Positions 15,135 through 36,365 of a DNA stretch of 36,579 bases are shown here, in pieces (positions within the stretch are counted from its first letter, which is position 1; every line of letters starts with the position of its first letter). Position numbers and translations under genes: made by a program. The notes beneath the pieces are model-generated. The model saw nothing but the letters and a program-made list of their open reading frames with translations, was not told the DNA's origin and did no database searches. The stretch lies in NCBI GenBank assembly GCA_021808445.1, contig JAKBBP010000027.1:1-36579 (forward strand). Direction: 5' to 3'. The stretch is from Pseudomonadota bacterium (GTDB lineage: Bacteria > Pseudomonadota > Gammaproteobacteria > Burkholderiales > Burkholderiaceae_C).

Positions 15135-15201
15135 CGCCCGGCGGCGCATGGCGAGGATGCGCGACAATGGAGCCCTACGATCGCCGAGCTTCGCATTCGA
15201 C

Positions 15202-15879
15202 ATGACCACCTCGCTCCGGGGCCGCGACTCCCGCGCCCGCCCCCAGGCCTCGCTGCAGGACCGCCTGCTGGCGCTGGCCGACAACGCCCTGAAGACCCTG
15301 GCCGGGGGCCTGCACGCCTCGCGCCCGACGCCCGAGGCCCCGGCGGGCGCGACCGCACGCCCGCTGGAGCCGGCGGAACGCGAGCTCTCCGGGCGCCTGA
15401 TGCGGGTCAACCACGTGGGGGAGATCTGCGCGCAGGCGCTCTACCAGGGCCAGGCCCTGGTGGCGCGCGACCCCGGACTTCGCGTGCATTTCGCCCAGGC
15501 GGCCCGCGAGGAATGCGACCACCTGGCCTGGTGCCGCGAACGCCTCCAGCAACTCGACTCCCGCCCCAGCTTGCTGGACCCGCTTTGGTATGCGGGCGCG
15601 CTGGGCCTGGGCGTCGCGGCCGGCAGCTTCGGGGAACGCCTCAGCCTGGGCTTCGTGGTGGAGACCGAGAACCAGGTCGAACAGCATCTGGCCTCGCATC
15701 TGCAGCGCCTGCCGCAGGCCGACCTCGCCTCGCGCGCCGTGGTGGAAAAGATGCGCGGCGACGAGGTGGCCCATGCGACCGCCGCGGAAAAACTCGGTGG
15801 CCTGCCCCTGCCGGCGCCGGTGCGCTGGGGCATGCGCGCGGCGGCCAGGGTCATGACCACCACCGCCCACTGGATCTGA
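15202..15879 (+). CDS. coq7: Demethoxyubiquinone hydroxylase (Coq7)
   Basis: Di-iron monooxygenase that hydroxylates demethoxyubiquinol in ubiquinone biosynthesis; peripheral inner-membrane protein of 225 aa. Six metal ligands can be read: Glu in HVGEICA, Glu and His in EECDHLAW, Glu in ETENQVEQH, and Glu and His in DEVAHA. The start at 15202 gives the usual beta-proteobacterial N-terminus; an upstream ATG at 15148 lies too close to the porin terminator. A -10-like GACAAT is about 30 bp upstream of the ATG. It converges on the OsmC-family gene. Confidence 0.95.
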   Translation: MTTSLRGRDSRARPQASLQDRLLALADNALKTLAGGLHASRPTPEAPAGATARPLEPAERELSGRLMRVNHVGEICAQALYQGQALVARDPGLRVHFAQAAREECDHLAWCRERLQQLDSRPSLLDPLWYAGALGLGVAAGSFGERLSLGFVVETENQVEQHLASHLQRLPQADLASRAVVEKMRGDEVAHATAAEKLGGLPLPAPVRWGMRAAARVMTTTAHWI

Positions 15880-15904: not shown

Positions 15905-16351
15905 TCAGCCCTCGACGATCTCGAAACTGGTGGTGATGGCTGCGGTCTTCGCCAGCATGGCGCTGGCGGAGCAGTATTTCTCGTGGGACAGCGCGATCGC
16001 CCGCTCGACCTTGGCCGCATCGAGCGCGAGTCCGCTGACGACGAAGTGCATGTGGATCGCGGTGAACACCTTCGGGTCGCTGCCGGCTCGGTCGGCCTGC
16101 AGGCGTACGCTGCAGTCGCGCACGTCCTGGCGCCCCTTGCGCAGGATGTACACCACGTCGTAGGCGGCGCAGCCGCCGGTGCCGGCCAGCACGGTTTCCA
16201 TCGGCCTGGGCGCCAGGTCGTGCCCGCCGGGCTCGCCCTCGCGCGCAGCCGGGGCTCCGTCCATGGTGATCATGTGCCCGCTGCCCGTGGTGGCGACGAA
16301 GGCCATGCCCTCCCCCTCCAGTGGCTTGGTCCAGCGCACCGTGCATTCCAT
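15905..16351 (-). CDS. OsmC-family protein (YhfA-like)
   Basis: 148-aa protein of the OsmC/Ohr superfamily. Many members reduce organic hydroperoxides through two cysteines, here Cys61 (GTGGCAAYDV) and Cys127 (HEKYCSASAML). The overall layout and the motif KTAAITTSFEI match the YhfA branch, whose physiological substrate is poorly known. The start is supported by GGGAGAG about 8 nt upstream. A weak -10-like CACAAT lies on its strand near 16397. Confidence 0.92.
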   Translation of the reverse strand: MECTVRWTKPLEGEGMAFVATTGSGHMITMDGAPAAREGEPGGHDLAPRPMETVLAGTGGCAAYDVVYILRKGRQDVRDCSVRLQADRAGSDPKVFTAIHMHFVVSGLALDAAKVERAIALSHEKYCSASAMLAKTAAITTSFEIVEG

Positions 16352-16503
16352 TGCTTGGCTCTCCCATGCGGCCGATGGCCGTCCGAGCTTCTATTGTGCG
16401 ACATGCGCGGCGACAGCGTTGCCCTCCCGCAACACCGCAGCGCCGCGTCTCGGTGCTTGCGCCGCAAGCCCACGCAACGGCACCCCGCGTCGGCCTCTGC
16501 ATC

Positions 16504-16521
16504 CGCGCATTCGAATGCGCG
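16504..16521. promoter_or_regulatory. Perfect 18-bp palindrome, probable operator
   Basis: CGCGCATTCGAATGCGCG is its own reverse complement. It ends 27 bp before the -35 box of the candidate small RNA promoter, a usual place for an activator or repressor site. The protein that binds is unknown. Confidence 0.5.
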
Positions 16522-16548
16522 CAAATAAACCAGGACCAGCAAGGGGTT

Positions 16549-16577
16549 TTGCCAAGTACTCGGGTTTGTCCTAAGAT
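16549..16577 (+). promoter_or_regulatory. Sigma-70 promoter of the candidate small RNA / ilvA leader
   Basis: TTGCCA (16549-16554) and TAAGAT (16572-16577) match -35 and -10 boxes closely, with the optimal spacing of 17 bp. Transcription would start near 16584. It is one of the two best promoters in the window. Confidence 0.75.
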
Positions 16578-16583
16578 AGAGCC

Positions 16584-16673
16584 ATGTCGACGATGTCTGG
16601 TCGACGCCTCTTGTCTCCTCCACCCTCCTCCATAGGTGGATTCAAACCCAGGCCCCAAGCCTGGGTTTTTTTT
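16584..16673 (+). ncRNA. Candidate small RNA (or ilvA attenuator) with anti-Shine-Dalgarno loop
   Basis: Predicted RNA of about 90 nt between its own promoter and an intrinsic terminator. Hairpin 1 is GTCGAC/GTCGAC (16586-16591, 16600-16605) with an 8-nt loop. Hairpin 2 is TCCACC/GGTGGA (16619-16624, 16635-16640) and shows CTCCTCC in its 10-nt loop; a further TCTCCTCC lies just before it and partly overlaps the stem. Hairpin 3 is the terminator. C-rich loops of this type are known in regulatory RNAs that pair with ribosome binding sites. The frame opened by ATG 16584 has no stop before the terminator and no Ile/Val/Thr run, which argues against a leader peptide. It may act in trans or as a cis attenuator of ilvA. 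I do not recognise a named RNA family. Confidence 0.6.
16644..16673 (+). terminator. Strong intrinsic terminator upstream of ilvA
   Basis: AAACCCAGGC and GCCTGGGTTT form a perfect 10-bp stem with loop CCCAA, and the T-run is eight long (16666-16673). It ends 70 bp before ilvA and closes the candidate small RNA. Confidence 0.93.
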
Positions 16674-16743
16674 GTGCCCTGCGCGGCGAGCCTCTCGGCT
16701 GCCCTTGGATAAACTGGGGTCTTTGCCCGCTCTGGCCCCGCAC

Positions 16744-18285
16744 GTGACCCGCAAGCCCATCGACTACCTCCAGCGCATCCTGACCGCGAACGTGTACGAC
16801 GTCGCGCACGAGACGCCGCTGGACCTGGCGCACAACCTCAGCCGAAGGCTGCACAACACCGTGCTGCTCAAGCGCGAGGACCAGCAACCCGTATTCAGCT
16901 TCAAATTGCGCGGCGCGTACAACAAGATGTCGCGCCTGAGCGAGGAAGAGCGGGGGCGCGGCGTGATCTGCGCATCGGCCGGCAATCATGCCCAGGGCGT
17001 CGCGCTGGCGGCGCGCAAGCTGGGGTGCCGCGCCGTCATCGTGATGCCCTCGACCACCCCGAAGGTCAAGGTCGATGCGGTTCGATCCTTCGGCGCGGGC
17101 GCCGTCGAGATCGTGCTCGAGGGCGAGAGTTACAGCGATGCCGCGGCGCACGCGGCGAAGCTGCAGGGCGAGCGCGGGCTGAGTTTCGTGCACCCCTTCG
17201 ACGACCCCGACGTGATCGCCGGCCAGGGCACCATCGGCATGGAAGTGCTGCGCCAGCATCCGGGGCCGCTCCACGCCGTGTTCTGCGCCATCGGGGGAGG
17301 CGGCCTGATCTCCGGCGTGGCCTCCTACGTGAAGGCGGTGCGCCCCGAGGTACGGGTGATCGGGGTGCAGACCACCGACTCGGACGCCATGCTGCGCAGC
17401 GTGCGCGCCGGGCGCCGCATCGAGCTGGCCGAAGTCGGGCTGTTCGCCGACGGCACCGCCGTCAAGCGCGTGGGCGAGGAGACCTTTCGCATTGCCCGGG
17501 AACTGGTGGACGACTACGTGGTGGTCGACACCGATGCCGTGTGCGCGGCGATCAAGGACGTGTTCGAGGACACCCGCAGCGTGCTCGAGCCTTCGGGGGC
17601 GATGTCGGTGGCGGCGCTCAAGCAGTACGCCGCGCAGCACAAGCTGAAATCGCAGACCCTGGTGGCCATCACCTGTGGCGCCAACATGAACTTCGACCGC
17701 CTGCGATTCGTCGCCGAGCGGGCCGAGGTCGGCGAGGCCCGCGAGGCCTTGTTCGCGGTCAGCATCCCGGAGCAGCCGGGAAGTTTTCGCAAACTGTGCG
17801 CGCTGATCGGCCAGCGTGCCGTCACCGAATTCAACTACCGCCTCGGTGACACCGAGCGGGCACAGGTGTTCGTGGGAATCGCCATCAGCAGCCGCGACGA
17901 CGCGCGGCGCATCGCGGCCCACCTGGAGCGGGCCGGATTCGCCACCCTGGACCTCAGCGAGGACGAACTCGCCAAGCAGCATGTGCGCCACCTGGCGGGC
18001 GGACGCGCGCCGCACGCCGAGGAATCCGCGCCGCTGCACGAGCGCATCCTGCGCTTCGAGTTTCCCGAGCGCCCGGGCGCGCTCATGCGTTTTCTCGACC
18101 GGCTCAAGCCGGACTGGAACATCAGCCTGTTCCATTACCGCAACCAGGGCGGCGACAGCGGGCGCGTGCTGGTGGGCATCCAGGTGCCGCCGGCCGACCG
18201 CAGACGCTTCGCCGAATTCCTCGACTCCCTGGGCTATTCCCATGTCGAGGAGACCGCCAACCCCGCGGTGCGCCTGTTTCTCTGA
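16744..18285 (+). CDS. ilvA: Threonine ammonia-lyase, biosynthetic
   Basis: PLP enzyme that deaminates threonine to 2-oxobutanoate, the first step to isoleucine; 513 aa. The start is taken as GTG 16744 because it gives the family N-terminus (TRKPIDYLQRILTANVYDV); open frame upstream runs through the terminator of the preceding RNA and is not coding. The PLP lysine is Lys54 in SFKLRGAYNK, and the phosphate loop is AIGGGGLISG. From about residue 330 two ACT-like domains (VSIPEQPGSFRKLC, RFEFPERPGALMRF) are present, so feedback inhibition by isoleucine is expected. A -10-like GATAAACT lies about 35 bp upstream. Confidence 0.96.
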   Translation: MTRKPIDYLQRILTANVYDVAHETPLDLAHNLSRRLHNTVLLKREDQQPVFSFKLRGAYNKMSRLSEEERGRGVICASAGNHAQGVALAARKLGCRAVIVMPSTTPKVKVDAVRSFGAGAVEIVLEGESYSDAAAHAAKLQGERGLSFVHPFDDPDVIAGQGTIGMEVLRQHPGPLHAVFCAIGGGGLISGVASYVKAVRPEVRVIGVQTTDSDAMLRSVRAGRRIELAEVGLFADGTAVKRVGEETFRIARELVDDYVVVDTDAVCAAIKDVFEDTRSVLEPSGAMSVAALKQYAAQHKLKSQTLVAITCGANMNFDRLRFVAERAEVGEAREALFAVSIPEQPGSFRKLCALIGQRAVTEFNYRLGDTERAQVFVGIAISSRDDARRIAAHLERAGFATLDLSEDELAKQHVRHLAGGRAPHAEESAPLHERILRFEFPERPGALMRFLDRLKPDWNISLFHYRNQGGDSGRVLVGIQVPPADRRRFAEFLDSLGYSHVEETANPAVRLFL

Positions 18286-35755: not shown

Positions 35756-35841
35756 GGAGGGGTGCCCGAGTGGCTAAAGGGGGCAGACTGTAAATCTGTT
35801 GGCTTACGCCTACGTTGGTTCGAATCCAACCTCCTCCACCA
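35756..35841 (+). tRNA. tRNA-Tyr (anticodon GTA)
   Basis: 86-nt class II tRNA with encoded CCA. Acceptor GGAGGGG pairs with CTCCTCC including one G-U; the anticodon loop CTGTAAA places GTA at 35790-35792; a long variable arm and the T-loop GGTTCGAATCC are present. It is first in the tRNA-tuf operon. Confidence 0.98.

Positions 35842-36097: not shown

Positions 36098-36171
<74 letters not shown>

Positions 36172-36290: not shown

Positions 36291-36365
<75 letters not shown>

Follow-up and report, generated by a model that had tools for sequence, protein, structure and literature searches.

Among the members of the Rfam family RF02278 (Betaproteobacteria_toxic_sRNA) are the double-hairpin RNAs known from Burkholderia cenocepacia (PMC4603805, PMC5688073) and four RNAs of Herbaspirillum seropedicae SmR1 (PMC7011215), and a likeness of the Bordetella pertussis small RNA (sRNA) S17 to the family, one RNA of which is named bdhR1, has been described by the S17 authors (PMC11722255). 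The family name is traced to Kimelman 2012 as cited in PMC4603805, where members are said to inhibit Escherichia coli when carried on cloning vectors. For the members in Burkholderia and Herbaspirillum, the function is called unknown or predicted in the publications consulted. Here we describe a relative of these RNAs in a 36,579-nucleotide stretch from a Pseudomonadota bacterium of the order Burkholderiales (GenBank assembly GCA_021808445.1, contig JAKBBP010000027.1, positions 1 to 36,579), the whole of which is referred to as the window. The RNA gene, at positions 16549-16674, had been called an unnamed small RNA or attenuator in an earlier note. It does have a name, as it matches RF02278 over the full length of the model (1-64 of 64) at 66.6 bits against a cut-off of 50, and it is a further member of a catalogued family, ordinary in itself. 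Its value lies in the comparison that it opens, which points to a likely and testable switch for a widespread sRNA family, the polyhydroxybutyrate (PHB) regulator PhaR, and to the loss of that switch in the clade of the window.

The window RNA resembles the Burkholderia RNAs ncS03, ncS05, ncS27 and ncS62 in sequence, in its two hairpins with a C/U-rich strand and loop, and in its intergenic position with a promoter and terminator of its own. It differs in copy number, with one copy in the window's genome and three to five in Burkholderia (PMC5688073), and in an extra 5' hairpin outside the Rfam model, although ncS27 also has a longer, processed form. The likeness to S17 (S17L/S17S) lies in the conserved 5' strand and loop, compared by description and not by aligned sequences, in a 17 bp promoter spacer, in a TTGC -35 box (TTGCAT in S17, TTGCCA in the window), and in the neighbouring coq7 gene, which S17 adjoins. 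The two differ in leader length, ~120 nucleotides (nt) in S17L and ~28 nt in the window RNA, and S17 is higher in the Bvg+ mode (PMC11722255). The anti-hemB family RF02837 (Burkholderia RNA 7) likewise combines a C-rich hairpin with a terminator, but membership in it was rejected at 28.5 bits against a cut-off of 49.5.

The window RNA is very probably a stand-alone, trans-acting RF02278 sRNA that blocks mainly the translation of solute transporters. Its promoter is the sole site returned by a promoter scan of 16350-16800 on both strands, for which shuffled sequences gave a mean of 0.0 (standard deviation 0.2). The predicted transcript folds at -35 kcal/mol with a z-score of -5.18, equalled by 0/200 shuffles, and its 3' 62 nt folded alone reach a z-score of -5.00. 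As in the family at large there are two hairpins, the second of them the terminator, with UGUCUCCUCCA in front, and the gene is an independent intergenic one, with its own promoter and terminator, at a conserved locus. Sequence, scan and fold thus agree with the earlier note as to the promoter, the length of ~90 nt, the three hairpins and the terminator, and also as to the CUCCUCC in loop 2 and the TCTCCTCC just 5' of that loop, which occupies 16614-16621 with its three final bases within stem 2.

Judged from the pattern of substitutions, the hairpin structure is under selection. Compensatory changes, which the earlier note had proposed to look for in relatives, are seen in hairpin 1 within the genus and in hairpin 2 across families only. 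Among the 28 genus sequences (26 distinct), 96.1% of the hairpin 1 cells are paired and both-side changes occur at 5/6 pairs; hairpin 2 is invariant, and hairpin 3 has both-side changes at 2/10 pairs. Together the three stems have 7 such pairs and 31 such cells against a shuffle mean of 2.3 pairs and 6.3 cells, a level reached by 0/500 shuffles. Across families (72 sequences) hairpin 2 shows both-side changes at 2/6 pairs in 14 cells, the pair count being reached by 8/500 shuffles and the cell count by 0/500. The leader sequence is not conserved outside the genus; elsewhere in the family its fold has a median z-score of -1.2 against 0.09 in nearby control stretches, and in 10 loci of other families it has no advantage (-0.37 against -0.46 in controls). 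The 5' strand UGUCUCCUCCA is nearly invariant and the CUCCUCC loop is not the most conserved part. Eleven Polynucleobacter-titled copies, counted by eye, retain the strand without the CUCCUCC loop (L122, L134, L137, L146, L152, L162, L167, L174, L185, L195 and L200).

RF02278 has a single match in the window's genome and is matched in all 28 genomes of the genus (its own and 27 others). Matches were found in 50 of the 60 genomes searched as relatives, its own included (42 above the cut-off), in 170/200 genomes of a family sample (141 above) and in 104/160 of an order sample (61 above), and in 0/14 well-known control genomes. Second matches within the genus are weak, at ~30-33 bits; the highest numbers per genome among the matches listed are nine in G042 and eight in G279. 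A wider scan matched at least 119 contigs, a figure not usable as a frequency count. The titled contigs among the matches listed are mostly from Burkholderiales or other Betaproteobacteria, and 8 of the 119 listed failed a check for hairpin 2 and the T run; one titled Lachnospiraceae (L175) was dismissed as a chance match.

In the window's genome, start sites with which the RNA could pair are biased towards transporter genes. To find starts whose complementarity to site 1 extends past the Shine-Dalgarno core, this genome was searched with the pattern GGAGGAGACN{2,10}ATG, which gave 15 matches at 14 distinct sites; the same pattern read backwards gave no match in this genome. These sites include 13 open frames of at least 100 amino acids, and 10 of the 13 encode transporter proteins by Pfam: one SBP_bac_3, three MFS, two Peripla_BP_6, two near-identical BPD_transp_2 permeases, one DctP and one PTS EII-GUT. 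The remaining three are two frames with no Pfam match (L262, L272) and a response regulator (L279). With the control pattern GGAGGAGBN{3,11}ATG, for which the first 30 of 57 matches were examined, 1 of 18 frames of at least 100 amino acids encodes a transporter (MFS), a MotA/ExbB proton channel being excluded from the count. The difference between 10/13 and 1/18 has a Fisher probability of 6e-5, or 1.3e-4 with the near-identical permeases counted once. The two permease loci (L277 and L278, on contigs 68 and 72), which are paralogues or an assembly duplication, both carry the extended site-1 complement before the start.

Several points weigh against this reading. The target count covers exact matches to one seed pattern and ATG starts only, and many of the control sites lie inside longer frames and are not true starts; the transporter contrast is therefore too favourable by an unknown amount. 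Two congeners have five sites (G010) and two sites (G021), with 2 transporters (one MFS each) among 6 frames of at least 100 amino acids, which on its own is no different from the control 1/18 (P 0.14). To speak of uptake goes a step beyond the counts, because some MFS proteins export. The transcript in the window is a predicted one, and we infer by analogy that it is expressed and acts like its relatives.

Published work on the family agrees with a regulator of this kind. RNase E trims S17 to a short form that is stable, Hfq binds the RNA, and BP2158 is a directly repressed target; the single-stranded regions of S17 have matches in 70 candidate genes, and its authors name 32 genes or operons related to transporters among the candidates (PMC11722255). 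In B. cenocepacia, overexpression of ncS27 slows growth and its silencing speeds growth (PMC5688073). The suggestion in the earlier note of a trans-acting blocker of ribosome binding sites is strengthened by the family membership, by this published work and by the transporter bias of the complementary starts. RF02278 RNAs most likely bind the start signals of genes for nutrient transporters and reduce their output. In the window, the sigma-70 promoter would give a transcript of ~90 nt, from which the 5' hairpin would probably be cut off, as by RNase E in S17, to leave a stable form of ~62 nt. The exposed UGUCUCCUCCA strand and the C-rich loop 2, probably with the help of Hfq, would then pair with extended Shine-Dalgarno sequences and block translation, mainly of solute transporters.

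The upstream sequences of relatives carry a palindrome, TTGC(T/A)GC...GCAGCAA, at the -35 box. It matches the Ralstonia eutropha PhaR consensus YTKNTGCRNYGCANMAR (PMC12849132) and the motif TG[N]TGC[N]3GCAA footprinted for H. seropedicae PhbF (PMC3206438). Three Burkholderia copies are said to share an upstream motif (PMC5688073), which may or may not be this palindrome. We propose that the palindrome is a PhaR site and PhaR the usual switch of the sRNA in relatives; in same-family relatives outside the genus it is a candidate operator for PhaR binding and regulation. The palindrome core, scored as TGCRNYGCA within 120 bp upstream of the RNA core, is present in 48/52 same-family loci outside the genus, in 13/28 genus loci and in 3/10 loci of other families (6 genomes). 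When up to two mismatches to the full consensus are allowed, sites occur in 42/52, 13/28 and 3/10 of the same three groups, against shuffle rates of 4.2%, 2.4% and 1.9% respectively. In 62/64 palindromes the left half serves as a -35 box, either TTGC or, in some cases, CTGC or GTGC, and is followed by a TANNNT at 15-18 bp, 43 of them at 17 bp, whereas only 11/917 other TTGC in these loci have such a -10 partner. The loci are mostly from best-scoring matches, not a random draw, and are related to one another; two with short upstream sequence (L026, L065) and three in which the core filter came up empty (L071, L078, L081) were left out, and the second-copy rows L068_2, L076_2, L087_2 and L092_2, three of which are shifted duplicates, were dropped. 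The exact PhaR consensus occurs 5 to 13 times per genome in six genomes, in all of which, the window's included, the nearest such site is 114-171 bp away from where the best phasin domain begins.

The palindrome also goes with the presence of PhaR. In other families of the order the core is present in 26/40 PhaR-plus loci (36 genomes) and in 1/20 PhaR-minus loci, with a Fisher probability of 6e-6 in a plain test not corrected for descent; counted at no more than two mismatches, the figures are 26/40 and 3/20. Presence of PhaR means a match to PF07879, and absence means in part that a genome is not among the 110 matches listed. The PhaR-minus set is 20 of the 27 sRNA-positive genomes without a PhaR match, with sRNA matches of at least 45 bits; outside it are L074 and L080, counted separately and both without the core, and the weaker G268, G302, G337, G344 and G352. 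The PhaR-plus set is the best copy per genome at 50 bits or more, outside the window's own family, together with four second copies; loci already in hand were left out, except for G056, which was taken again. The sole PhaR-minus locus with the core is in a genome that is 85% complete and whose congeners have PhaR. Most PhaR-minus loci (among L312-L330) share a promoter of another style, resembling ATATTAGATAATNCTAAT, and their leader differs as well.

RF02278-like matches also lie beside phaR itself, in at least seven genomes of three families among the matches listed, as found by comparing the sRNA and PhaR match lists by eye. They score 32-40 bits, below the cut-off, and are RF02278-like and not members by score. 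At six of these loci (L372-L377, two families) the RNA starts 0-66 bp past the stop of the gene divergent from phaR. That gene encodes a phasin (PF09361) in 6/6 cases, one of them barely above the cut-off, and upstream of the phasin start a site departs from the PhaR consensus by no more than one mismatch, also in 6/6. In the seventh genome (L378) the RNA stands alone, with two PhaR-type sites of 1 and 2 mismatches just upstream. A thiamine pyrophosphate (TPP) riboswitch of 67.6 bits (L374:2175-2285) follows the phasin-linked RNA at a distance of ~300 bases.

The palindrome at the -35 box could instead be the site of another regulator, or a mere feature of the promoter, an explanation that we consider unlikely though deserving of attention. 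The operator is read from a sequence pattern, and in other families only 13 of the 26 PhaR-plus palindromes sit on the scored -35/-10 pair. Most PhaR-minus genomes are from other families, whose promoter is different, so that descent may explain the contrast; G042 has PhaR with the core in 0/5 copies examined (of its nine), and the clade of the window has PhaR without the palindrome. On the other side, the palindrome fits both the published R. eutropha consensus and the footprinted H. seropedicae motif, and the same exact pattern stands upstream of the best phasin domain in 6/6 genomes, at the distances given above for the nearest site. The near absence of the core from PhaR-minus loci and the six genomes in which sRNA-like matches follow phasin genes with upstream operator sites also argue for PhaR. 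Within the open-access literature searched, no paper names both PhaR and the toxic small RNA, none of the top-ranked titles of broader searches links them, and there is no mention of PhaR in the main text, as searched, of PMC11722255, PMC7011215, PMC5688073 and PMC6321483; the S17 authors do postulate an unidentified repressor of the S17 promoter (PMC11722255).

In the window, the TTGCCA box sits where relatives carry the left half of the palindrome, and the right half is lost. The best match to YTKNTGCRNYGCANMAR upstream of the window RNA core has 5 mismatches and the core TGCRNYGCA is absent there; the clade as a whole keeps TTTTGC and the -10 box without the palindrome's right half and has 3-5 mismatches to the PhaR consensus. 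In an IlvA tree of 29 rows, drawn without L016 and L066 (too little IlvA), the 14 operator-less rows need one change, with support of 100/98. Because relatives outside the clade carry the operator, we infer that its absence in the clade is a loss. A loss of the operator by way of losing PhaR or the PHB genes was rejected, as the window's genome has PhaR and PhaC and its best phasin has two exact operators upstream.

These patterns suggest that the family is usually switched on as the cell fills its carbon store. PhaR is reported to quit the phaP1 promoter for nascent granules (PMC12849132). PhaR bound at the -35 box would repress the sRNA promoter in relatives, and growing PHB granules would sequester PhaR, so that phasins and sRNA rise together; the raised sRNA would then lower nutrient transporters, as a signal that the store is filling and import should stop. 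The link would have taken two forms, one a separate gene under a PhaR operator and the other the 3' end of a phasin mRNA controlled by PhaR, and the window's clade would have cut it while keeping the RNA. On balance, and with some reserve, we favour the view that RF02278 sRNAs are a post-transcriptional arm of the PHB regulon in many Burkholderiales, perhaps ancestrally, with a granule-triggered shut-off of transporters and a link lost in the window's clade. In B. cenocepacia, three of the double-hairpin RNAs reach a 4.3 to 8.0-fold greater abundance in glucose medium (PMC5688073), in line with the PhaR model.

A parallel to the wiring proposed for relatives is known from the Alphaproteobacteria, where Sinorhizobium PhaR represses the sRNA MmgR; the S. 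meliloti RNA differs in that it is said to act on phasin expression, whereas the likely targets of the window RNA are transporters (PMC12542648). In rich medium, membrane transport accounts for 30% of the genes that PhaR seems to activate in Sinorhizobium (PMC12542648), and a PhaR-repressed sRNA might explain the apparent need of many Sinorhizobium transport proteins for PhaR. If the model is true, granule formation would be the physiological signal for RF02278 sRNA promoters, mirroring the control of MmgR by PhaR, and a testable loop would link carbon storage with nutrient uptake across many species, including producers of bioplastic.

The gene order coq7-osmC-sRNA-ilvA is conserved among relatives (products in the window as we take them to be; Table 1). 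In 55 loci, each the best-scoring copy, OsmC lies upstream on the opposite strand in 54, Coq7 is present in 49 and IlvA lies downstream in 52; some of these loci are truncated by contig ends, and two (L043, L045) were positioned by hand. Of the 119 contigs listed in the wider scan, 109 have OsmC nearby and 83 have IlvA. The start of the presumed ilvA is a GTG 70 bp past the T run, chosen by eye and from where the matches to relatives begin. By its conserved place, yet with 3/55 loci lacking IlvA, the RNA is an old fixture of the locus and is not tied to ilvA.

Three other accounts of how the RNA acts have to be set against a trans-acting regulator of transporters. The anti-Shine-Dalgarno strand might poison ribosome binding broadly, as a general inhibitor of translation, which would be the sense of 'toxic'; the inhibition of E. 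coli by cloned family members (Kimelman 2012 as cited in PMC4603805) and the slower growth with excess ncS27 (PMC5688073) would fit. We think this improbable, as no growth inhibition of E. coli BL21 by S17S in exponential growth is reported in the available text of PMC11722255, the complementary starts in the window's genome favour transporter genes and the seed extends beyond the Shine-Dalgarno core. Very improbable is a cis-acting attenuator or switch in which, under some condition, transcription passes the terminator and reaches ilvA. IlvA does lie on the same strand downstream in 52/55 loci and the scan of 16350-16800 gives no separate ilvA promoter, but three loci (L028, L030, L038) have the RNA without an IlvA match downstream, the distance from the RNA core to the start of the IlvA match varies from 102 to 346 bases, and multi-copy genomes have the RNA at several places. 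Minimum free energy and centroid folds, the only ones inspected, offer no alternative to the terminator, and the earlier note had itself seen no Ile/Val/Thr leader peptide. With a terminator of its own and three loci lacking IlvA, the cis switch for ilvA raised in that note finds no support, and an amino-acid attenuator, expected always upstream of ilvA, was rejected on the same three loci. The slimmest chance is that the transcript also codes for a peptide. A frame at 16584-16709, open by eye, has its ATG at the predicted transcription start, spans the whole sRNA and ends at a stop near 16709, and S17 overlaps a 32-codon open reading frame (PMC11722255); the ATG, however, is absent in several members of the genus, loop lengths vary and the terminator lies inside the frame. 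A conserved leader peptide was rejected since the ATG is not kept in the genus.

Table 1. Positions of the sRNA gene, its parts and its neighbours in the window.
Feature	Position	Strand	Details	Basis
Sigma-70-like promoter TTGCCA-17-TAAGAT	16549..16577	+	TTGCCA box 16549-16554; TAAGAT box 16572-16577; spacer 17	promoter scan, comparison with relatives
Predicted primary sRNA transcript	16584..16673	+	~90 nt	5' end from -10 box, 3' end from T run
Hairpin 1, 5' leader hairpin	16586..16605	+	stem 16586-16591/16600-16605; outside Rfam model	fold, genus covariation
Site 1, UGUCUCCUCCA	16612..16622	+	seed complementary to extended Shine-Dalgarno sequences	near-invariance among relatives
RF02278 (Betaproteobacteria_toxic_sRNA) match	16612..16674	+	by analogy with S17S, putative processed short form	Rfam model
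Hairpin 2	16619..16640	+	stem 16619-16624/16635-16640; CUCCUCC (site 2, 16625-16631; CTCCTCC in the DNA) inside loop	fold
Hairpin 3 and T run, intrinsic terminator	16644..16673	+	stem 16644-16653/16659-16668; T run 16666-16673	fold, promoter/terminator scan
ilvA, threonine dehydratase (presumed), neighbour	16744..18285	+	start GTG 16744	named in earlier note, consistent with its sequence; relatives' loci
OsmC-like gene (presumed), conserved upstream neighbour	15905..16351	-		relatives' loci
coq7-like gene (presumed), conserved neighbour	15148..15879	+		relatives' loci

Three tRNA genes lie near the end of the window, at 35756-35838, 36098-36168 and 36291-36362.
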